A stretch of DNA of 64,000 nt from Leptotrichia sp. oral taxon 847. GTDB lineage: Bacteria; Fusobacteriota; Fusobacteriia; Fusobacteriales; Leptotrichiaceae. The position numbers were made by a program, and so were the translations under genes. Where the stretch lies: contig NZ_CP014231.1 in NCBI RefSeq assembly GCF_001553645.1, positions 558,001 through 622,000 of the forward strand. Direction: 5' to 3'. The first letter of the stretch is position 1. The number at the start of each line of letters is the position of its first letter. Below are positions 1,068-26,380 of this stretch, piece by piece. The notes under the pieces were generated by a model. It was not told where the DNA came from. It searched no databases and saw only the letters and a list, made by a program, of their open reading frames with translations.

Positions 1068-1931
1068 ATGGAAAAACCTAATTATTATGGAATATTACCA
1101 GCGAATGTAAGATATGATAAAGAATTAAAACCAATGGAAAAAATATTATTTACTGAAATTTCATCACTTACAAGCAAAGAAGGATATTGTTACGCCAAAA
1201 ATTCGTATTTTGCCGAACTATATGATGTTCATAAAAATACAGTAGGAAACTGGATAAACAATCTTGTAAAAAGAGGTTATTTAAAATCAGTAATTATTTA
1301 TGAAAAAGGAACTAAAAACATACAGGAAAGAAGATTATACATTACTACCCCTACAAACAAAAAGATTGATACTCCTATCAATGAAAAAATTGATACCTAT
1401 CAATCAAAAGATTTAGAGGGTATCAACGAAAAAATTGATACCCCTATCAACGAAAAGATTGAGGATAATAATACAAGTATTAATAATACAAGTTTATTAT
1501 TAAATAATAATAATATACATGTGAAAAATGAATTTTCACAATCGTGTGAAAAAATAAAAAACCAATGGATAAAAATTGCTTACGAATTTGATTTATCAGG
1601 TAAACAATTAAAAATAACTGACAAGCGAAAGAGAGCTATTAACAATTTGCTAAAAGAGTATTCGCTGGAAGAAATGTTACAGGCTATGGGAAAAATCCGT
1701 ACATCTAATTTCTTGCAAGGAAACAATAAAACAGGGTGGCAAATATCATTCGACTGGTTTACTAACAAATCAAATTTTTTGAAAGTGCTCGAAGGAAATT
1801 ATGACGATAAAGCAGGTATTAATAATTCTGAAAAAGAAAAAAAATCTAAAAATTATCAAGAAAAAGACTTTGTTGGAGTAACTAACGAAAGCATTGCAAA
1901 TTTATTAGGAGGATTGACGGGAAATGAATAA
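1068..1931 (+). CDS. phage replisome organizer (helix-turn-helix replication initiator)
   Basis: This 287-residue protein has the architecture of phage replication initiators. The N-terminal helix-turn-helix (about residues 20-75) includes KNSYFAELYDVHKNTVGNWI. A repetitive linker (about 100-150) carries several copies of INEKIDTP and then Asn runs. The C-terminal domain contains the WQISFDWFTNKSNFLKVLEG type ending common in DnaD/replisome-organizer proteins. The linker repeats are encoded by DNA iterons, so the gene probably carries its own origin. It overlaps the next gene by eight bases, pointing to coupled translation with a helicase-loader-like partner. An inverted repeat before the gene suggests repressor control. 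Confidence 0.75.
   Translation: MEKPNYYGILPANVRYDKELKPMEKILFTEISSLTSKEGYCYAKNSYFAELYDVHKNTVGNWINNLVKRGYLKSVIIYEKGTKNIQERRLYITTPTNKKIDTPINEKIDTYQSKDLEGINEKIDTPINEKIEDNNTSINNTSLLLNNNNIHVKNEFSQSCEKIKNQWIKIAYEFDLSGKQLKITDKRKRAINNLLKEYSLEEMLQAMGKIRTSNFLQGNNKTGWQISFDWFTNKSNFLKVLEGNYDDKAGINNSEKEKKSKNYQEKDFVGVTNESIANLLGGLTGNE
1351..1520 (+). other. candidate phage replication origin: iterons plus AT-rich region inside the initiator gene
   Basis: Between about 1351 and 1465 there are four to five repeats about 22-24 bp apart, built on TATCAA-N8-TTGATA. Units at 1376-1395 and 1421-1440 carry the complete dyad; those at 1351, 1398 and 1445 are degenerate. They are followed at once by about 60 bp that are almost pure A/T (1466-1515), as expected of an unwinding element. 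Iterons inside the initiator gene followed by an AT-rich stretch is the known layout of lambda ori in gene O and of lactococcal phage rep genes; the assignment here is inferred from that. Confidence 0.6.
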
Positions 1932-2553
1932 TCAAGAATTTAACGAAGTATTTAAACTGCTTTTAGCAGCTTACCCAAACACAAAAGACAAGGAAAGTGT
2001 CGCAACTATTTATTTTTTGACAATTGCAAATGAGTTGACTAAAAAAGAATTTGCAGAAGCAGTTGTTAAAATCTTAAAAACCAGAAAAAGCGGATTTATA
2101 CCGCAACCGGCAGAGATTTTGGAAGTTGCTAAAAAAAATACTAACATCGAACATCAAGTGATTTTAGCTAAAAAAATGTTGATTGAAGGGGTTAGAAAAG
2201 TCGGCAGTTCAGGAATGGTGGCTTTTGAGGACAAAGGTCTTCACGCTGTAATCGATTTTCTTGGGTGGCATAGAATTTGCACAATGGACAAAGTCGAATT
2301 TGATAATTTTTTAAATTTTCAGTTTGACGGAATTTACAAGGATTTTTTAGAAAATCCATACAAAACAAAAAATTATTACACAGGTACATACAAAATTATT
2401 GGGCAAACACAACCAAAGCTCGTTACTTATGCAAGTGTTGGTGTAAAAAATACTAAAAATCTTAAATTTGTTAAACTAGAATATAAGCCACAAAATGAAG
2501 TTAGAGCAGTTGATTTTAGTGAACTTAGAGAAAAAATGCTGATAGGAGGATAA
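1924..2553 (+). CDS. putative phage replication protein, helicase-loader-like
   Basis: The 209-residue product begins with a helical domain (NNQEFNEVFKLLLAAYPN) typical of small phage replication partners that act as replicative helicase loaders or loader inhibitors. The motif SGFIPQPAEILEVAKK in the first 70 residues is characteristic of this group. The start codon overlaps the replisome organizer stop (ATGAATAA), so the two are translationally coupled. No Walker motif is present, so it is not an ATPase loader of the DnaC type. Function is inferred mainly from position and the N-terminal resemblance. Confidence 0.5.
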   Translation: MNNQEFNEVFKLLLAAYPNTKDKESVATIYFLTIANELTKKEFAEAVVKILKTRKSGFIPQPAEILEVAKKNTNIEHQVILAKKMLIEGVRKVGSSGMVAFEDKGLHAVIDFLGWHRICTMDKVEFDNFLNFQFDGIYKDFLENPYKTKNYYTGTYKIIGQTQPKLVTYASVGVKNTKNLKFVKLEYKPQNEVRAVDFSELREKMLIGG

Positions 2554-2559
2554 ATAGAA

Positions 2560-2760
2560 ATGACAAAAGAACGATTGAAATTGATGAAGCAAATCAGTTC
2601 TGAAACGGCGAAAAAAGTCGAAGAAAAAGTTGTAAATATAACGAATTTTGAAATTGATTTTTTTGTTGAGCATTTGAGAAATGAATTAAAAAAAATGAGA
2701 CATGGAGGAATAAATGCTAAAAGAAAATGTAAAAGCGAAAGTAATAGTGATAGATTTTGA
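2560..2760 (+). CDS. small phage early protein, hypothetical (66 aa)
   Basis: A strong Shine-Dalgarno (ATAGGAGG) supports translation. The product is mainly one charged helix (MTKERLKLMKQISSETAKKV) and its last 16 residues are read over the start of the next gene in another frame, a 47-base overlap. No family is recognised. Overlap and spacing place it in the early operon between the loader-like gene and RusA. Confidence 0.5.
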   Translation: MTKERLKLMKQISSETAKKVEEKVVNITNFEIDFFVEHLRNELKKMRHGGINAKRKCKSESNSDRF

Positions 2761-2965
2761 AAATAAAAAAGGTTGGAAATTGTATCACAATGAGGACTTG
2801 TATGGAAACACAGAGATTGCAGATGACAGATTCTGGAACGATGTGCAGGAAGGGTATTACAAGTTCGGCAAGGGCACAACTTTAATTGCTGATATTAAAT
2901 GCCCCTGGAGAATAGAAGAGCCTTTAAAAATTTTGAAAGTACATGAGGTGATTTACAGTGATTAA
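2714..2965 (+). CDS. hypothetical phage early protein (83 aa)
   Basis: This 83-residue protein has a clear ribosome-binding site (ATGGAGGAATAA before ATG) and looks like a small beta-rich domain: an N-terminal strand (VKAKVIVIDFENKKGWKLY), a middle FWNDVQEGYYKFGKG segment and a strand-rich end. It overlaps RusA by eight bases. No known family is recognised. It belongs to the early DNA-metabolism operon. Confidence 0.6.
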   Translation: MLKENVKAKVIVIDFENKKGWKLYHNEDLYGNTEIADDRFWNDVQEGYYKFGKGTTLIADIKCPWRIEEPLKILKVHEVIYSD

Positions 2966-3308
2966 GCTGGAATTATCCACAATGCCGCCATCTGTAAATT
3001 CTTTATGGATAAATAAACCGAGTGGAAGATACAAGTCCAAAAGGGGCAAAATCTTTGAAAATTTAGCTTGTGGCGAACTTAAAAAGCAATTTAGGTATAA
3101 ACCTTTGGCTAACAGTTTGAAAGTCCGCATAAGGCTTTATTTCAAAGATAAGAGAAAAAGGGATATAGATAACTACAATAAGGCGATTTTGGATTCAATG
3201 ACTAAAATTATTTATGAAGATGATTCGCAGATTGAAGAACTAAATGTTAAAAAATTAGTTGGCTGTGGATTTAATAAAGTAGAAATTGAAGTGGAGGGAA
3301 TTAAATAA
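2958..3308 (+). CDS. rusA: RusA-family Holliday junction resolvase
   Basis: The 116-residue product matches the size and layout of RusA endodeoxyribonucleases, Mg-dependent dimeric resolvases that cut Holliday junctions during phage recombination. Diagnostic features are the N-terminal strand with PPSVNSLW, the catalytic aspartate region KRDIDNYNKAILD (about residues 71-83) and the second acidic pair in YEDDSQIEEL (about 90-100). It starts with GTG eight bases before the stop of the preceding gene and ends touching the start of the next (TAATG), a tightly coupled early operon. Confidence 0.85.
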   Translation: MIKLELSTMPPSVNSLWINKPSGRYKSKRGKIFENLACGELKKQFRYKPLANSLKVRIRLYFKDKRKRDIDNYNKAILDSMTKIIYEDDSQIEELNVKKLVGCGFNKVEIEVEGIK

Positions 3309-3532
3309 TGGATAAAATATTATATCTTGTATCATTTAAATATGGAGATAGATTTGGTGATACAAATTCTGGAAATTGCACGGTTTTTATTAAAAAAGGG
3401 GACTATTCGGAAAGCGAAGTTCTCGAAATGTTTATTGAAGGCATAAAAACGAATTTTGGTTTTGAAAACGAAGAAATAGTGATAACAAATATAATTAACT
3501 TGGAAAAAATAAGAAGGGAACTGGAAGAATAA
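3308..3532 (+). CDS. hypothetical phage protein (74 aa)
   Basis: This 74-residue protein starts on the stop codon of rusA (TAATG) and its own stop overlaps the next start in the same way, so it is certainly part of the coupled early operon. The sequence (MDKILYLVSFKYGDRFGD, then SESEVLEMFIEGIK) suggests a small alpha/beta domain. No known motif or family is recognised. Confidence 0.6.
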   Translation: MDKILYLVSFKYGDRFGDTNSGNCTVFIKKGDYSESEVLEMFIEGIKTNFGFENEEIVITNIINLEKIRRELEE

Positions 3533-4002
3533 TGGAACAATGGAACAAATTGGTTGGATCAGTAAAAGAATTTTATATTGCATTTGGGCAGCAGGAATTT
3601 TTGGAAAAAGAAATGACTGACGAGAGAATGAAGTTAAGAGAAAAATTATTTGAAGAAGAATTAAAAGAATATGAGGTGGCAGAAAAAAATAATAACAAGG
3701 TTGAAATGCTGGATGCAGTATGCGACATGTGTTATATCTTAATAGGGACATTGTTAGAAAAATGTAAAGGCGATGTTAAGGCTGTTACAAATATGATTTA
3801 TTTTGGATGTGATGATAAAAGCGAATTTATTTTTGAAAAAGTCTTTAAAAATGAATTTAATGATATTTTTGTAAGAGCATTCGAGGAAGTCCACAGAAGC
3901 AATATGTCAAAACTGGAAAATGGGAAAGCAATTTTCAGGGAAGATGGAAAAATATTGAAAGGTAAAAATTATTTTAGACCAAATCTGGAAAATTTTTTTT
4001 AA
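3532..4002 (+). CDS. MazG/PRA-PH-like nucleoside triphosphate pyrophosphohydrolase
   Basis: The 156-residue product resembles all-alpha NTP pyrophosphatases (phosphoribosyl-ATP pyrophosphohydrolase/MazG superfamily), which hydrolyse nucleotides to monophosphate and pyrophosphate. The metal-binding signature is visible: EELKEYEVA (about residues 43-51) followed by EMLDAVCDMCYILIG (about 61-75), the E-x-x-D pattern of the second helix. The C-terminus contains the FREDGKILKGKNYFRPNL ending shared by phage members. Such enzymes are common in phage early operons. It ends just before a palindrome and the Rha gene. Confidence 0.7.
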   Translation: MEQWNKLVGSVKEFYIAFGQQEFLEKEMTDERMKLREKLFEEELKEYEVAEKNNNKVEMLDAVCDMCYILIGTLLEKCKGDVKAVTNMIYFGCDDKSEFIFEKVFKNEFNDIFVRAFEEVHRSNMSKLENGKAIFREDGKILKGKNYFRPNLENFF

Positions 4003-4003
4003 T

Positions 4004-4023
4004 AACTTATGTATACACAAGTT
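4004..4023. promoter_or_regulatory. 20-bp near-perfect palindrome (operator) before the rha gene
   Basis: AACTTATGTATACACAAGTT is a dyad centred on GTATAC, with 18 of 20 positions symmetric. It lies about 30 bases before the rha ribosome-binding site. One arm contains CTTGTGT, the same half-site as in the inverted repeat before the replication gene. It is probably the binding site of a phage regulator, perhaps Rha itself or the Xre repressor. Confidence 0.55.
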
Positions 4024-4055
4024 AAAGTGCATAAAAAAAATTAGGAGGAATATTA

Positions 4056-4670
4056 ATGAATGAATTAATGAACATAGAAAGCAGAAACACATTGACAAGT
4101 TTGGAAGTAGCACAAATAGTAGGAAAAGAACATAAAAATATTTTAGCTGATATTAGAGATGAAATCAGTAAATTAGGAGAGGAAAGAGGTCGGCTAATTT
4201 TTCAGCCAACCACCTATATAGATAATTTTAACAGAAGTCAACCGATGTTTCTTTTGAATTACAAAGGAGTGCTGCAACTTGGGGCAAGATATAATGCTGA
4301 AACAAGATTTAGACTTATTGAAAAGATTGAACAACTTCAAAAACCAATGACAATAGAAGATATGATCATATTGCAGGCAAATGAAATGAAGAGTGTTAAA
4401 CATAGAATTGACGTTGTAGAAAACAAAGTTGACAATGAGATAAGAATAGACCATACGGAACAAAGAAAATTGCAGAAAACAATAGCAACAAGAGTTTATC
4501 AAAGACTAGATGTGATAGATGCTGACAGAAATTTAATGTTTCCAGCAATTTACAGAGATTTAAAGGACAGGTTTGGAGTTGCAAGTTATCGTGATATTAA
4601 GAGAAAAGACTTAACCGAGGCATTGGCATATGTACAGAACTGGATAGAAAAAGCGGAATTGAGGAACTGA
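4056..4670 (+). CDS. rha: Rha-family phage regulatory protein with ORF6C domain
   Basis: The 204-residue protein combines two known phage domains. The N-terminal Rha domain (about residues 8-95) has LTSLEVAQIVGKEHKNILADIRD-type sequence, in which the regulator recognises DNA, and ends with FLLNYKGVLQLGARYNAETR. The C-terminal ORF6C domain (about 130-200) contains VYQRLDVIDADRN and DLTEALAYVQNWIEK. Rha proteins interfere with growth of phages in hosts lacking integration host factor and act as antirepressor-like regulators. A strong Shine-Dalgarno (TTAGGAGGAA) precedes it, with a palindromic operator candidate upstream. Confidence 0.85.
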   Translation: MNELMNIESRNTLTSLEVAQIVGKEHKNILADIRDEISKLGEERGRLIFQPTTYIDNFNRSQPMFLLNYKGVLQLGARYNAETRFRLIEKIEQLQKPMTIEDMIILQANEMKSVKHRIDVVENKVDNEIRIDHTEQRKLQKTIATRVYQRLDVIDADRNLMFPAIYRDLKDRFGVASYRDIKRKDLTEALAYVQNWIEKAELRN

Positions 4671-4698
4671 TATGGAAGAGATTGATTAAATTAATAAA

Positions 4699-4729
4699 AG
4701 GACAATGACAACTGAATAATAACTGTGAT
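4699..4729 (+). repeat. 5' box of accessory cassette 1 (31 nt, shared with 24965)
   Basis: This 31-base block reads AGGACAATGACAA, then four variable bases, then AATAATAACTGTGAT. It recurs at 24965-24995 with about four differences, each time directly after a late-operon gene and directly before the promoter of an accessory gene. Its inner 12 bases TAATAACTGTGA are the exact reverse complement of the left part of the terminator closing the cassette at 6649, so cassette 1 is bounded by inverted repeats. Confidence 0.75.
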
Positions 4730-4737
4730 AAATAATT

Positions 4738-4765
4738 TTGAAATTTTTAGATTTTTAGGTATAAT
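4738..4765 (+). promoter_or_regulatory. sigma-70 promoter of the OLD-family gene
   Basis: TTGAAA and TATAAT are separated by 16 bases, near-consensus, about 28 bases before the OLD gene start. It gives the accessory gene expression independent of the phage early operon, as is typical of morons. Confidence 0.75.
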
Positions 4766-4793
4766 AAATATTATCAGAAACAGGAGGTAATTA

Positions 4794-6641
4794 ATGAAAT
4801 ATAAGAAATTTAGAATAAGAAATTATAAGGCGATTAAAGATCTAACAATAGAATTGGATAATCAAAATTTGGTTCCAATAATAGGTTTAAATGAAACGGG
4901 AAAGAGCTCTATCTTACAAGCAATATTTGCATTTGATTGCTTTAATGACAAGCAATATAGTGGCGAGTTTATAAATTATGACTATATAAAAAATAAATTC
5001 GAAAATAAACAAAATCCTATTATCGAAGCCGAAATAGAAAATATAAATAAAAACGATTTGATAGAGAACGCAATAGGATATATAATTACGCAAAAAGAAG
5101 ATTATTTTATTTCTAACAGCCGATACAAAGATAATAGTGAATTTAAAAAGCATCAATATTTAAATTTTATTCGAGATAAATTATTGAATTTTATGGAAAA
5201 TGTATTTTTTAATATAAAAGAAAATAATTTAAAAATCGCAAGAGAATTTTCAATTACTCAAAATGGTATGTACAATAATAGATATTTAATTTCACAATTA
5301 AAAATCAAGGAGTTTAATGAAACAATATCAGTAAATGGTTATTCAATCGAAGAGCTCTTATTTTATATACCAAAAGAAGAAATAGAACAATTAATAGGAG
5401 AATCAATTTTAAAATATTTACCTCATATAGTATATATTGATGATTTTAAAGATGCGATTCCAAATAGAATCAAAGAAAACGATGATTGGTATTTGTACAT
5501 CAAGGAAATATTTTCTAGAAATAAAATGAATGTAAATGACTTTTTGAATAGCACTTTATCAGATAAAGGGACAATGCTGGAAGATATAAAATATGAACTT
5601 AATGAAAATCTAGCCAATTTATGGGATAAAATGCACGAAAACAGAATAAAAGAAGAATTTAAAACTATAGAAATTGATTTAAAATACGGAGATAAAGAAT
5701 TTCAATTTTTAATAAATGATTTGAGAGAAAAAAGAGAAAACGGAAGACCAAGAACAGTGGTATTTCCAGTAAATATGCGTTCTAAAGGATTTCAGTGGTT
5801 TTTCAATTTTTTCATTAAAATGAAATATAATTGGAAACATATAAGTGATGAAAATTATGGGAGTATAATTTTATTGGATGAGCCAGGAGTATATTTACAT
5901 ACAACTTTTCAGTCAGAATTAGTAAAAATATTGAAAGAATTATCGTTAGAAAACAAAATATTCTATACAACACATTTAGAAAATATGGTTAATCCAAAAG
6001 TAATAAAAATAAATCAAGTTCATATAGCAAAAAGAAAAAATGAAAAAGTGATATTAGAAAGAATCACTAAAATTGAAGACAATAAAAATTTAGGAGAAAT
6101 GACACCGATAATAAATGCTTTAAAAATAGATAATTTTCCATTATTACATTTTAATGAAAAAATTATAATAACAGAAGGGATGACAGATAAAATATTTCTA
6201 GAGATGCTAAAAGAAATTGAATTGCTGGATACCAATATAAAGATTATTCCTGGTGTAGGAGTTACAAATCTTAGTATTTTAATAGGTTTATTTAGTGGAA
6301 TAACAGATAATTATACTGTAATTTTTGATAATGATGATGAAGGAAGAAAATTTTTTGAAAAATATAAAAATGAATATGGTGAAAGAGAAAGCAAGAAATG
6401 GATATTGCATAAATCAAGGGATAAAGAAAAAAAAGATATTGTATTAGAGAGTTATTACAGTCCCAAAATAAAAGAAATTTTAGAAAAATATCCAAATGGA
6501 ATAAAGACAGGATTAATAGAGTTTTATTACTATGCAACATCCGAAGAAAAAGAAATATTTTATAAAGAATTAAAAGATTTAAATAGAAAAGGAGAGGATA
6601 TCCATATTCTTATAAATCAAATAAAATCAAAATTGAAGTAA
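4794..6641 (+). CDS. OLD-family ATPase with TOPRIM nuclease domain (putative phage defence gene)
   Basis: The 615-residue product has an SMC-type ATPase with a C-terminal TOPRIM domain, the OLD (overcoming lysogenization defect) architecture. Walker A is GLNETGKSS (31-39), Walker B and signature are LLDEPGVYLH (360-369), and a TTH histidine loop is at 392-394. TOPRIM metal ligands are E461 (TEGMTDK) and the acidic run FDNDDEG (511-517). No UvrD-like helicase follows, so it is not a Gabija pair. OLD nucleases are known anti-phage proteins, including in P2. It has its own promoter and terminator and shared cassette ends, so it is probably a prophage-borne defence gene. Confidence 0.85.
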   Translation: MKYKKFRIRNYKAIKDLTIELDNQNLVPIIGLNETGKSSILQAIFAFDCFNDKQYSGEFINYDYIKNKFENKQNPIIEAEIENINKNDLIENAIGYIITQKEDYFISNSRYKDNSEFKKHQYLNFIRDKLLNFMENVFFNIKENNLKIAREFSITQNGMYNNRYLISQLKIKEFNETISVNGYSIEELLFYIPKEEIEQLIGESILKYLPHIVYIDDFKDAIPNRIKENDDWYLYIKEIFSRNKMNVNDFLNSTLSDKGTMLEDIKYELNENLANLWDKMHENRIKEEFKTIEIDLKYGDKEFQFLINDLREKRENGRPRTVVFPVNMRSKGFQWFFNFFIKMKYNWKHISDENYGSIILLDEPGVYLHTTFQSELVKILKELSLENKIFYTTHLENMVNPKVIKINQVHIAKRKNEKVILERITKIEDNKNLGEMTPIINALKIDNFPLLHFNEKIIITEGMTDKIFLEMLKEIELLDTNIKIIPGVGVTNLSILIGLFSGITDNYTVIFDNDDEGRKFFEKYKNEYGERESKKWILHKSRDKEKKDIVLESYYSPKIKEILEKYPNGIKTGLIEFYYYATSEEKEIFYKELKDLNRKGEDIHILINQIKSKLK

Positions 6642-6648
6642 ATTGAAG

Positions 6649-6679
6649 TCACAGTTATTAATTTAGCTGTGATTTTTTT
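6649..6679 (+). terminator. intrinsic terminator and 3' box of cassette 1
   Basis: TCACAG and CTGTGA form the stem around TTATTAATTTAG, followed by seven T. The same 24-base hairpin, letter for letter, closes the second cassette at 25867. Its first 12 bases are the reverse complement of part of the 5' box at 4717-4728. Confidence 0.85.
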
Positions 6680-6699
6680 ATGCAAACAGCAAATAAAAT

Positions 6700-6775
6700 A
6701 TAAAAATAGTAAAATTTATATAATAAGAACGATAAAAATGTATCATAAGTGTGAAAAAACACTAAAATTATATTT
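6700..6775 (+). pseudogene. truncated copy of the leader and start of the gene at 8295
   Basis: The sequence after the cassette 1 terminator (from about 6703) matches that preceding and starting the gene at 8295: AAAATAG-AAAATTTATAT, then GATAAAAATGTAT, then GTGAAAAAA. The short reading frame from 6738 begins MYHKCEK, compared with MYIKCEK at 8295, and quickly becomes unrelated. It looks like a leftover of a duplication or an abandoned junction. The rest of 6642-6798 holds no gene. Confidence 0.5.
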
Positions 6776-6798
6776 TAAAGTTTTAAAATGGAGGGAAA

Positions 6799-6987
6799 AT
6801 GGAAAATAAAATAAATAAAATTACGAGAAAGAAAATAAGTTTTGTAAAAAGGAAATTAAGAGAAGGTGAACATTTATCAGAAAGTGAAATATTTTTTTGT
6901 CAGTATAATCCGAAATATTTTGAAAATATAAAATTCATAAGAAGGAAAGGATTAAAAAATGGCAGACGCTCAAATTTTAAAAGATGA
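6799..6987 (+). CDS. small basic phage protein, hypothetical (62 aa)
   Basis: A 62-residue, lysine/arginine-rich protein (MENKINKITRKKISFVKRKL) preceded by ATGGAGGG. Its C-terminal end (KNGRRSNFKR) overlaps the start of the HNH gene by 29 bases. The high positive charge suits nucleic acid binding, but there is no recognised family. Confidence 0.55.
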   Translation: MENKINKITRKKISFVKRKLREGEHLSESEIFFCQYNPKYFENIKFIRRKGLKNGRRSNFKR

Positions 6988-7720
6988 GTTAGTGGTAACA
7001 ATAGCTGTTGAAAAAATTTATCCTGGTCTGAAAGAACGTCTTGAAGAGCATTTAAAAAAACTCAAAATTAGAGTTATTCCGATCAAAAAACTTACAAAAG
7101 CACAAAACGGATTAATTCATGTGCTTTTAAAACAGTTTGCAGATGAGCTTGGATGGACAATGCAGGATATGAAAGAATATCAAAAAGAACAATTTGCATT
7201 AAGTAAAGATTTAGAAAAGTTTTCGACAGCAAGTTGTGATATAGAAACGGCAAGCGATTTTATAGCGTTTATAATAGAACAGGCTCTAGAAAATGAAATA
7301 AATTTATATATACTTGGAAAACACGATAAAAGATATAAACATATACTGGAAATTGACAATATAACACAAAGATATGTGATTGCCTGCTTGAGAAAAAGAG
7401 TTTGCTGTATCTGCGGAAAAGAGCATAATGAGTACAACGAAATACAGCTGGATCATTACGATACTGTAGCAAATACTGTCGGAACTTATGAAAATGATGA
7501 CGGATTACACGGTAGGTTTTTACCTTTGTGCAGCTATCATCATTTTGAAAAACATTCAAAAAGTTTAAAAGAATTTGAAGAGGAGTATCATATAGAAGGC
7601 GTTTATCTGAATCCCCAATTAGTTTATGATTTATTACCAGTTTATAAAAATCATTTTAAATTATTTAGAAAAAGGCTTAAAGATGGGTATTATAGGGGGA
7701 TTATTAAGGAGGTGGAATAA
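6959..7720 (+). CDS. putative HNHc endonuclease (phage HNHc_6-like)
   Basis: The 253-residue protein has the C-terminal zinc-bound HNH domain of the putative phage HNHc nuclease family: VCCICGKEHNEY (about residues 147-158), the catalytic LDHYDTVAN (about 163-171), and CSYHHFEKH near 190-198. The N-terminal 130 residues are a helical domain typical of this group (LTKAQNGLIHVLLKQFADEL). HNH proteins often sit before terminase genes and assist packaging, which suits its position upstream of the terminase. Start chosen at the ATG after AAGGATT; it is coupled to the following membrane gene (TAATG). Confidence 0.75.
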   Translation: MADAQILKDELVVTIAVEKIYPGLKERLEEHLKKLKIRVIPIKKLTKAQNGLIHVLLKQFADELGWTMQDMKEYQKEQFALSKDLEKFSTASCDIETASDFIAFIIEQALENEINLYILGKHDKRYKHILEIDNITQRYVIACLRKRVCCICGKEHNEYNEIQLDHYDTVANTVGTYENDDGLHGRFLPLCSYHHFEKHSKSLKEFEEEYHIEGVYLNPQLVYDLLPVYKNHFKLFRKRLKDGYYRGIIKEVE

Positions 7721-7941
7721 TGGAAATAATAATAAGAATCATAAACACTTTAATCACAGCAACAGCTACTTTAATGCTGGTAAGATACATCTATGGATTA
7801 GTTATCGTATTTAAAGATAAAGTAAGAACATTTAAATTCAACATAAGCAATTTGATAGTGCTTTTAATTGCTATGATTGTAATTTTATCCGTGATTTACG
7901 GCTTGGTTTGGATTATAAAGTTTTTTGCGATTAGAGTGTGA
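7720..7941 (+). CDS. small membrane protein with two transmembrane helices (73 aa)
   Basis: Two hydrophobic segments are clear: about residues 5-30 (RIINTLITATATLMLVRYIY) and 44-70 (ISNLIVLLIAMIVILSVIYG). They are joined by a short charged loop (FKDKVRTFKFN). It starts on the stop codon of the HNH gene, so it is co-translated. Holin-like or exclusion roles are possible for such a protein, but it is far from the lysis genes and nothing specific can be read. Confidence 0.6.
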   Translation: MEIIIRIINTLITATATLMLVRYIYGLVIVFKDKVRTFKFNISNLIVLLIAMIVILSVIYGLVWIIKFFAIRV

Positions 7942-7947
7942 AAAAGG

Positions 7948-24404: not shown

Positions 24405-24956
24405 ATGAAGAAAAAGACAACTGGTAAGAAAAAAGGTAAAACGATTAAAGAATCAAAAGAAAAATTGCAAAAGAAAGCCGAAAGCAAGAAGAAAAGAACT
24501 AAAAAAGAAAAAACCTTGAAAGTTAAAACTAAAGGGAAAACAGAAGCAAAGAAAGTTGCAAAAAAGACTTTGAAAGATAATCTAAAACAAGAGTATCAGA
24601 TAACTTTAAACGTTGACGGAAGCACTAAATACTTAGCTGGAGCAATAATTGAACTTGATGAAAGCTGGGGAAAGTTTGAAGGCAAATATGTAATTGACAA
24701 GGTAACACACGAAATAAGTGGTGATTATACTTGCGAAATCATAGCAATGAAACTTGGAGCAAGAGAAAATGCAGAGAAAAAAGCAATAGCTCAAACTAAA
24801 GAAGAACAAAAGAAAAAAGAAGCTGAAAAAGCTAAGAAAAAAAGTGCGAAGAAGTCGAAAAGTAAAACAACTTCTAAAGGTAAAAACACTGCGAGAAAAT
24901 CGACTAAAAAAGCAAGAGATAAGAAAAACACTAAAAAATCTGGTAAAAAGAAATAG
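24405..24956 (+). CDS. late control gene D protein, C-terminal part with lysine-rich tails
   Basis: 183 residues. The middle (about 65-125) is the gpD C-terminal domain: YQITLNVDGSTKYLAGAIIE, then LDESWGKFEGKYVIDKVTHE, then ISGDYTCEIIAMKLGARENA. It is flanked on both sides by long Lys/Ala/Ser/Thr stretches (first 60 and last 55 residues) that look like histone-type basic tails. It lies in the same frame as the preceding gene and has a weak ribosome-binding site (AGAGGTTGA). The basic tails may bind DNA or the cell surface, or simply tether the two halves; this is inference. Confidence 0.7.
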   Translation: MKKKTTGKKKGKTIKESKEKLQKKAESKKKRTKKEKTLKVKTKGKTEAKKVAKKTLKDNLKQEYQITLNVDGSTKYLAGAIIELDESWGKFEGKYVIDKVTHEISGDYTCEIIAMKLGARENAEKKAIAQTKEEQKKKEAEKAKKKSAKKSKSKTTSKGKNTARKSTKKARDKKNTKKSGKKK

Positions 24957-24964
24957 AGTTTTGT

Positions 24965-24995
24965 AGGACGATGACAATCAAATAATAACTGTGAT
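24965..24995 (+). repeat. 5' box of accessory cassette 2 (31 nt, shared with 4699)
   Basis: Same length and order as the box at 4699: AGGACGATGACAA, variable bases, then AATAATAACTGTGAT. Its inner 13 bases TAATAACTGTGAT are the reverse complement of ATCACAGTTATTA in the terminator at 25866. It directly follows the gpD C-terminal gene. Confidence 0.75.
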
Positions 24996-25028: not shown

Positions 25029-25057
25029 TTGCACTTTTACTACAAATAAGTTATAAT
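25029..25057 (+). promoter_or_regulatory. promoter of the small-protein/GNAT operon
   Basis: TTGCAC and TATAAT separated by 17 bases, followed by AAAAAGGAG and the gene at 25091. A near-consensus promoter independent of the late phage operon. Confidence 0.75.
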
Positions 25058-25090: not shown

Positions 25091-25255
25091 GTGGCTACAA
25101 AAAGTTTTACGACAGAAATGACTTTTGATAAAAAATCTGTAAATAGTTTGATAAAAGCTTTGAATAATGAAAAGTCTCCCAACAGAAAACCTGTAAAAAA
25201 TGTGGAAATTATAAACAATCCAGATACAATACGAAAGATATTTGGCAAAAAATAA
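25091..25255 (+). CDS. putative antitoxin of a GNAT toxin pair (54 aa)
   Basis: Start GTG 25091 lies eight to nine bases after AAGGAG; an ATG at 25082 is too close to that site and a longer frame crosses the promoter. The 54-residue product reads ATKSFTTEMTFDKKSVNSLI, then KNVEIINNPDTIRKIFGKK. Small proteins of this pattern (KSFTTE...F..KS...L...) are found directly before GNAT acetyltransferase genes in Firmicutes-type genomes and behave like antitoxins by position. The toxin gene follows after one base. Assignment as antitoxin is inference. Confidence 0.55.
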   Translation: MATKSFTTEMTFDKKSVNSLIKALNNEKSPNRKPVKNVEIINNPDTIRKIFGKK

Positions 25256-25256
25256 T

Positions 25257-25856
25257 ATGTATATAGAAAATGTAAAAATTGTATCTTTGCAAGATTTATT
25301 GGACGAATTAAAAGATAAAAAATTCGTGAGAGATAGTATTTTGAAAAATTTTAAAAATAATTATAATAAAGATATAGAAGACTTTTTACATAACAAAGCA
25401 ATAGAATTTGAAAAGGCAGGTTTATCAAGTACACATTTAGTTTTTAGCGATGATTTTGTTTTATTGGGTTATTTTTCTTTGGCAAACAAACCTTTGCTTA
25501 TATCAAAAAGAAATTATGAGGCATTATCGAAGAGCCAAAGAAAAAAACTCTGTCAAAACGGTAAAAGATTAACAACAGATGGCTATATAGTTAATAGTTA
25601 TTTATTAGGACAAATTGGCAAAAATCATTCAGAGCAAGTAAAATCCGAAAATTATATAGATGGAGCACAACTTTTGACATTAGCTTATGATTCATTAATG
25701 GAAGCTAAGAAAATAGTAAATGTCCGTTATGTATGGTTAGAATGTGAAGATAATGAAAAATTATTATCTTTTTATAAAAATTTTGGATTTGAAGAAATTG
25801 AGAACTTTATTTCAGGAAATGGATTAAAAGTTTTAGTAATGAAATTGAAAAAGTAA
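25257..25856 (+). CDS. GNAT-type acetyltransferase, candidate toxin
   Basis: Start at ATG 25257, one base after the upstream stop, suggests translational coupling; a TTG at 25242 is an alternative. The 199-residue product is a GNAT fold: an N-terminal helical part (NNYNKDIEDFLHNKAIEFEK), strands LVFSDDFVLLGYFSLANKPL, the acetyl-CoA binding region near GQIGKNHSEQ (a shortened Q/R-x-x-G-x-G/A loop) and the C-terminal VRYVWLECEDNEKLLSFYKNFGFEEI typical of the last strand and helix. GNAT toxins acetylate aminoacyl-tRNA; whether this one does is unknown. Confidence 0.65.
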   Translation: MYIENVKIVSLQDLLDELKDKKFVRDSILKNFKNNYNKDIEDFLHNKAIEFEKAGLSSTHLVFSDDFVLLGYFSLANKPLLISKRNYEALSKSQRKKLCQNGKRLTTDGYIVNSYLLGQIGKNHSEQVKSENYIDGAQLLTLAYDSLMEAKKIVNVRYVWLECEDNEKLLSFYKNFGFEEIENFISGNGLKVLVMKLKK

Positions 25857-25866
25857 ATTTTGTAAA

Positions 25867-25897
25867 TCACAGTTATTAATTTAGCTGTGATTTTTTT
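25867..25897 (+). terminator. intrinsic terminator and 3' box of cassette 2
   Basis: TCACAG and CTGTGA around TTATTAATTTAG, followed by seven T. It is identical over 24 bases to the terminator of cassette 1 at 6649, though 19 kb apart. Confidence 0.85.
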
Positions 25898-25930
25898 GTT
25901 ACAAAAAAAGTGATAAGGCAGGTGGTTAAA

Positions 25931-26380
25931 TTGATTGAAACATTAAAAGCAGGAGAAGTAAGTGCGATAGATTCAAAAACTGGAAAAGTAAGAGTGCTGT
26001 TAAAAGGCGACGATGATAAAACAACGGACTGGCTTAATGTGTTAGTTCCTTATTCTGAAAGCCACAGCGATAATTATACACTTGGACTAGGGCAGACTGT
26101 TTACTGCTTATTCTTTTCAGAAATGCCTGAACAGGGAGTTGTGCTTGGCTGTCCTATGCGAGGTGCTTCTAGTAGTGAAAGTGAAGTGAAAAGGAGTTTT
26201 TCTGATGGTGGAAGCTGGAGCTATGATAAAAACACGTTGACCTTGAATATCGGAAAAATTGTAATTAATGGAGATTTGGAAGTCAGCGGAACTACAAAAA
26301 CTGGTGGAAGTATTAATCTTAATACACATAAACATGATGGAGTAACTGCTGGTGGAGATATGACTGGAGGTCCACAATGA
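25931..26380 (+). CDS. baseplate assembly protein V (spike)
   Basis: I start at TTG 25931, after GCAGGTGG; earlier GTG codons lack a ribosome-binding site. The 149-residue product has the P2 gpV layout: an N-terminal OB-like domain (GEVSAIDSKTGKVRVLLKGD, then LGLGQTVYCLFFSEMPEQGV) and a C-terminal beta-helix with THKHDGVTAGGDMTGG. The H-x-H-like NTHKHDG suits the metal-binding tip of the spike. The second cassette lies just before it, between gpD and gpV. Confidence 0.8.
   Translation: MIETLKAGEVSAIDSKTGKVRVLLKGDDDKTTDWLNVLVPYSESHSDNYTLGLGQTVYCLFFSEMPEQGVVLGCPMRGASSSESEVKRSFSDGGSWSYDKNTLTLNIGKIVINGDLEVSGTTKTGGSINLNTHKHDGVTAGGDMTGGPQ

Follow-up and report, generated by a model that had tools for sequence, protein, structure and literature searches.

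Exchangeable accessory cassettes of Leptotrichiaceae prophages carry a 5' box antisense to their own terminator

A 64,000-nucleotide stretch of Leptotrichia sp. oral taxon 847 (the window; contig NZ_CP014231.1, positions 558,001 to 622,000) holds a prophage with two accessory gene cassettes that carry unrelated genes and share their ends. Both have the same frame, i.e., a 5' box, a promoter-like sequence, a payload and an intrinsic terminator, in which the box is antisense to the terminator. The cassettes are best explained as morons, self-contained accessory transcription units lying between phage genes of the same strand. We consider it likely that they are, moreover, morons permissive to read-through, whose ends recombine between slots and phages. 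Judging from the sequence, the terminator would be conditional, closed to RNA born inside the cassette and open to RNA coming from upstream. With slightly less assurance, we favour the view that they represent a lineage-wide and undescribed type of cassette in Leptotrichiaceae phages and chromosomes, combining a conserved 5' element with an antisense segment specific for each terminator. The terminator would act only on cassette-born transcripts, so that defence or toxin genes could sit within essential operons without causing polarity.

The two cassettes of the window and their ends

The features of both cassettes and of the slots (A and B) that they occupy are as follows.

Slot A, cassette 1
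4056..4670, + strand: left flank of the slot, antirepressor gene
4699..4729, + strand: 5' box AGGACAATGACAACTGAATAATAACTGTGAT, proposed to act as an antiterminator in the RNA, complementary to the hairpin at 6649-6672
4738..4765, + strand: sigma-70-like promoter TTGAAA-16-TATAAT, 3' of the box, 96th percentile of within-cassette windows
4794..6641, + strand: payload 1, OLD-type ATPase/TOPRIM gene, 615 amino acids (AAA_15 7e-22, OLD-like_TOPRIM 3e-7, PADLOC Old 6.5e-26)
6649..6679, + strand: right end, intrinsic terminator hairpin TCACAGTTATTAATTTAGCTGTGA followed by T7
6799..6987, + strand: right flank of the slot, small open reading frame (ORF) ahead of a phrog_398 gene

Slot B, cassette 2
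24405..24956, + strand: left flank of the slot, tail gene, its stop codon 8 nt 5' of the box
24965..24995, + strand: 5' box AGGACGATGACAATCAAATAATAACTGTGAT
25029..25057, + strand: sigma-70-like promoter TTGCAC-17-TATAAT, between the box and the first ORF
25091..25255, + strand: small ORF, start codon and family inferred
25257..25856, + strand: GNAT acetyltransferase, AtaT/TacT-like toxin by predicted fold
25867..25897, + strand: right end, same terminator hairpin followed by T7
25910..26380, + strand: right flank of the slot, baseplate assembly gene, same strand, directly 3' of the terminator

The initial annotation had described the 5' block as recurring in both cassettes and partly complementary to the hairpin. 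The block is indeed found in both, identical at 27 of 31 positions and thus not an exact repeat, and its last 15 nt (AATAATAACTGTGAT) are common to the two. The exact recurrence claimed for the 24-nt hairpin with its T7 holds over all 31 nt. Also as described, TAATAACTGTGA and the left side of the hairpin are exact reverse complements of each other, but the complementarity turned out to be larger than claimed, extending over ca. 24 nt and the whole hairpin. The sigma-70 promoter assigned to each cassette corresponds in both to a promoter-like sequence between the box and the first ORF, and both payload identifications (OLD-type AAA plus TOPRIM, and GNAT) were borne out. By domain or predicted fold, the payloads belong to the OLD family and to the AtaT/TacT GNAT toxins, which are only two of the many kinds carried by these cassettes. 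The Pfam domain Acetyltransf_10 was found in six of six homologues of the GNAT protein, whose predicted fold is nearest to the tRNA-acetylating toxins AtaT2, GmvT, TacT and KacT. The small ORF preceding its gene probably codes for a ribbon-helix-helix type antitoxin, and its relatives adjoin a GNAT gene in L264, L215 and L216.

The same genome has a second prophage (1838-1868 kb) with the same OLD cassette and another one containing a SocA-type antitoxin and a PemK-like toxin. The two prophages share ca. 6.5 kb at 99% identity (window 1471-7945 versus G000:C1 1838599-1845066, L010), a segment that includes the OLD cassette; their tail regions differ.

Complementarity and co-variation of box and terminator

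In the end type of the window cassettes (class I), ca. 24 nt of the box pair with the hairpin over its full length, including the loop and both arms. The predicted box:hairpin duplex ranges from -15 to -30 kcal/mol versus about -12 for the hairpin (in cassette 1, -22.7 versus -12.0 for the hairpin alone). The box hardly folds on itself (0 to -2.2 kcal/mol), while an exact reverse complement of the hairpin would give -5 to -10. This weak self-folding, together with the retained duplex, indicates that the box has kept its pairing with the terminator while losing its own structure. Among 21 distinct pairs of ends, 91.9% of the cells form standard pairs and five pairs have changed on both sides; the covariation score is 0.173, versus 0.128 +/- 0.009 for shuffled pairs (0 of 500 reach the observed value) and at most 0.083 in slid registers. 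Two subclasses are exactly matched, one with box AATAACTGTGA and hairpin TCACAGTTATT, the other with AATGACTGTGA and TCACAGTCATT. A GAC in the box is paired with a GTC in the hairpin 11 times, the A:C combination was never seen, and the two hybrids retain G.U. The GNAT payload of the window is found in another genus (L264) with the other of these matched pairs of ends. The first 9 nt of the box, AGGACAATG (e.g., window 4699-4707), are conserved in nearly all class I boxes.

The same rule applies to ends of unrelated sequence. The outer motif of the box, AGGACAATGRCAAYTGAATA, also stands 5' of other cassettes, whose inner box sequences are unrelated but in each case match the terminator of the same cassette, and AGGACAATG recurs with it there. 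The inner box/terminator pairs of these classes are AATCTAGTCTT/AAGACTAGATT, TTTAGTCTTGT/ACAAGACTAAA and TTGAGGGTTT/AAACCCTCGA; the classes are represented by a chromosomal toxin-antitoxin island present in several Leptotrichia genomes, with inner box TTAATCTAGTCTT and terminator AAGACTAGATTAAAATTCTAGTCTT, and by a second genus (genome G027), with ATATTTAGTCTTGT and ACAAGACTAAAT and with CAACTGAATATTGAGGGTTT and AAACCCTCGATATTAAGTTG. In class III, the outer motif itself is altered to match the hairpin (TAGAATATT versus TTCTAG). In total, four end classes are well supported and one (class II) is weak. The mean duplex energy is -18.9 kcal/mol between cognate ends and -7.7 across classes. When the 4.5 kb downstream of each box were scanned without choosing targets, an intrinsic terminator proved to be the best complement for 15 of 33 boxes versus 9 of 198 shuffled ones, a comparison that should not be read as a probability since several of these occurrences are orthologous.

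Partition-function folding was applied to 18 class I cassettes of up to 1.1 kb. In 18 of 18, the probability of the terminator stem was 0.00-0.01 when the box was present and rose to 0.99-1.00 in its absence, and in four cassettes of classes IV/V it was 0.00-0.10 and 0.97-1.00, respectively. Hence, class II aside, the two structures are mutually exclusive in silico and the antiterminator is the more stable one, the pairing being conserved by co-variation.

Other functions considered for the box were discarded. The prophage control region has repeats of the TTGC..ATGCAA type and no box-like site, so the outer box is not taken as an operator of the phage repressor. A promoter inside the box was rejected given that the TATAAT seen in its 32-nt form is not conserved in the shorter one of 30 nt, and a leader peptide (ATG...TAA) given that it is lost in the ATT forms and the 32-nt forms. 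Some additional loci are worth describing. A chromosomal toxin-antitoxin island with class III frame, made up of GNAT, AbiEii-like and SocA-like genes (L182, L195, L185, L193 and, extended, L213-L217), varies in content and lies at a left flank shared by several Leptotrichia genomes. In L254-L257 (G027, another Leptotrichiaceae genus), class IV/V cassettes coding for small lipoproteins or secreted proteins lie back to back, and most of them have a box and a terminator of their own that match each other. A box-like element at L266:1781 has a very strong complement (-25.5 kcal/mol) about 3010 nt downstream, which is no obvious terminator.

Slots, payload exchange and distribution

At the site of a given cassette, related phages have no cassette or a different one. 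One slot may contain different payloads and one payload may occupy different slots, the identity ending at the box and returning at the terminator; the sharp shared ends and exchangeable slots proposed by the initial annotation were therefore recovered. Slot A, with the antirepressor gene on its left and a small ORF on its right, contains OLD in three phages and SocA/PemK in another one with an identical box, and here identity ends at the last base of the box and returns at the hairpin. Three related phages (L143, L153 and L171) have the slot empty, with the antirepressor gene and the small ORF nearly touching and neither end present; boxes devoid of payload were not found in the comparison of related phages. 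Slot B, between the tail and baseplate assembly genes, holds several payloads and is filled in eight of eight Leptotrichia homologues as well as in one that comes from another genus. The same applies to slots C and D, and replacement of the payload was seen in slots A, B and D. SocA/PemK and a type I-like unit appear in several slots with different flanks outside the ends, and tandem cassette arrays also occur.

A hairpin with its T-run closes the right end of every cassette, and the phage genes on either side, wherever they are clear, have the same orientation, with boxes often located 8-32 nt past a stop codon. Between box and payload, a promoter-like sequence reaches at least the 94th percentile in 23 of 35 cassettes, including both of the window. 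The variants of the outer box tend to go with the slot and not with the payload, which fits crossovers inside the box. Of the two means of transfer initially suggested, recombination at the ends thus agrees with the data, while an unknown mobiliser is unsupported because none of the cassettes was seen to hold a recombinase and the ends differ completely between classes and are nevertheless self-complementary. Homologous recombination at the cassette ends would best explain the exchange of payloads, and the phage codes for a protein weakly similar to the NinB/Orf recombination mediators. Integron attC-type GTTRRRY cores were not found at the cassette junctions read.

In its own genome, with up to three mismatches, the hairpin occurs seven times and the box three times; a chance origin is excluded because the reversed control patterns gave no match there. 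The hairpin was found in 13 of 13 Leptotrichia genomes and the box, at the same threshold, in 6 of 13, the box occurring together with the hairpin in prophages. We recovered 35 distinct class I cassettes with box and terminator from Leptotrichia and related Leptotrichiaceae, so the boxes extend well beyond the phage of the window. The full class I box is always followed by a matching terminator wherever the contig reaches far enough. In a scan of one genome per GTDB species, strict boxes were confined to Leptotrichiaceae, and the outer motif was present in 21 of 33 genomes of the family versus 4 of 63 other genomes of the order, those four all at two mismatches.

The payloads that could be identified comprise OLD, GNAT accompanied by a small antitoxin-like protein, SocA/PemK, PemK, Fic and ParE/RelE-like proteins, BRO-N/ANT and Rha-like proteins together with AbrB-like partners, DUF4875-like lipoproteins and 510-bp units encoding two tiny hydrophobic peptides. 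They are thus mainly toxin-antitoxin or defence-like, as initially proposed, although that description was too narrow in view of the antirepressor-type proteins and lipoproteins. The 510-bp unit looks like an undescribed type I toxin-antitoxin pair, and its cassettes have a promoter-like sequence at the far end pointing inward. Their positions are as follows.

L062:1569-2078, 510-bp cassette
L067:3310-3819, 510-bp cassette
L081:2254-2760, 510-bp cassette
L087:3981-4490, 510-bp cassette
L115:1403-1913, 510-bp cassette

The hairpin is also an ordinary terminator at the end of conserved chromosomal operons, there without a box. Core operons ending in the same 24-nt hairpin are found genus-wide (L058, L060, L066, L083, L093 and others), for example one with ribonuclease J-like and YhbY-like genes. 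Phage insertions at L085:3067-3680 and L176:2535 are closed by the hairpin or its variant TCACGATTATTAATTTAGTCGTGA with no box upstream, and the TCACGA hairpin of L176 was rejected as a further class for lack of a box at that locus. A repeat of the DNA-uptake type was discarded, as there are only about 2-7 copies per genome. Searching the viral_contigs set with a slot A flank protein found no relatives, the cultured phage records gave no DNA match, and Rfam had no match at the gathering score in positions 1-40000 of the window.

Proposed read-through and its alternatives

Accessory genes with terminators inside essential phage operons pose a problem to which the usual answer is a phage-encoded antitermination protein. 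The 5' box, an antisense terminator copy located upstream of the cassette promoter, points to a control of transcriptional read-through. Since the internal promoters lie 3' of the box, the RNA of the cassette itself would lack it; the terminator would fold and transcription would stop. RNA started at an upstream phage promoter would carry the box, the flanking genes having the same direction, and the box would pair with the emerging terminator and block the hairpin, letting the polymerase continue into essential phage genes such as those of the baseplate. Such conditional termination would allow the cassette to be expressed alone in the prophage without blocking the phage operon, while recombination in the common ends would swap payloads between slots and phages. 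Read-through in the cell is what we infer from this arrangement. If true, the cassette would itself carry the RNA key to read-through, a portable answer to this problem, which would explain why the slots take so many payloads. It would also provide a simple design rule for insertable gene cassettes and a handle to discover new defence and toxin genes, by reading what lies between a box and its matching terminator.

Several observations weigh against this interpretation. The cassette sequences are related to each other, so the counts are not independent, and 12 of the 35 have no convincing sigma-70 promoter near the box. Some phage insertions (L085, L077 near 12375 and L176) have the terminator without a box. 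In class II, the box has little effect (terminator probability of 0.86 in its presence), and the duplex of cassette 2 in the window, at -16.8 kcal/mol, is the weakest with a standard class I terminator, despite which folding predicts the switch. Equilibrium folding ignores kinetics, and the box must reach the hairpin across 0.5-3 kb before the latter folds. Finally, AGGACAATG takes no part in the pairing; it could be a site for a protein or for processive antitermination. The latter idea can be carried further, with the outer box acting like canT or put, as an RNA for processive antitermination, and the terminator pairing being secondary. Processive antiterminators acting in cis are known in mobile elements (PMC11658703), and the initial part of the box is both unpaired and conserved across classes, but an inner segment matched to each terminator would then be needless, and the change of the class III outer motif to match its hairpin (TAGAATATT versus TTCTAG) also argues against it. 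We regard it as unlikely.

Scarcely more probable is that box and hairpin are terminal inverted repeats at the DNA level, belonging to a mobile cassette served in trans by one recombinase or transposase. In class I, the left end repeats the right end almost completely in inverted orientation, and the cassettes move between slots and form tandem arrays, as such an element would. However, the ends are wholly different between classes yet self-matched, leaving no common repeat for one enzyme, and the box has lost its own hairpin while still pairing with the terminator. Its variants tend to follow the slot and not the payload, and no recombinase or transposase gene was found among the cassettes examined. 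The empty sites of slot A, with strongly diverged flanks, show no clear target duplication, nor was any cassette seen to be reversed relative to the flanking phage genes where these are clear. A simpler proposal, that the ends are mere patches of homology for payload exchange with no role in transcription, accounts for the exchange boundaries lying in them, but it has no need for complementarity between 5' and 3' ends, for their joint change or for its persistence in unrelated classes, and we find it improbable. Least credible is a processing or stability signal (e.g., for RNase III) excising the cassette from the polycistronic message. A duplex of 20-24 bp would close each cassette in the read-through RNA, but this still presupposes read-through and leaves unexplained why boxes match terminators and not any downstream sequence.

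Read-through control through the box would have only partial parallels among known systems. In insertion sequences protected from impinging transcription, the inverted ends fold only in RNA entering from outside and silence the transposase, whereas here the outside RNA would open a terminator. In transcription attenuators, mutually exclusive RNA pairings likewise decide termination; unlike in them, the antiterminator strand is here 0.5-3 kb upstream, across the whole cassette, and the switch would read the origin of the RNA and not a ligand or a ribosome. Tn916 is also a mobile element combining an (insulating) terminator with a cis-acting RNA antiterminator, canT (PMC11658703), but the latter is processive and acts on heterologous terminators, while each box matches its own. 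In organization, the cassettes resemble the phage morons (HK97/HK022 type), complete transcription units added to phage genomes (PMC6316719), and P22 pid, at whose position relatives have nothing or a different insert (PMC3573128). These are also extra units with their own promoter and terminator, in slots that are empty or otherwise filled in relatives. Unlike them, our cassettes, dozens of them with unrelated payloads, have common ends, and their 5' segment can pair with the terminator. We found no description of an antisense terminator copy at the front of a cassette in the open-licence literature. Upstream of the annotated morons of HK97 (gp15 and gp22) there is no copy of this kind, and what best complements their terminators lies elsewhere, in other terminator-like sequences.
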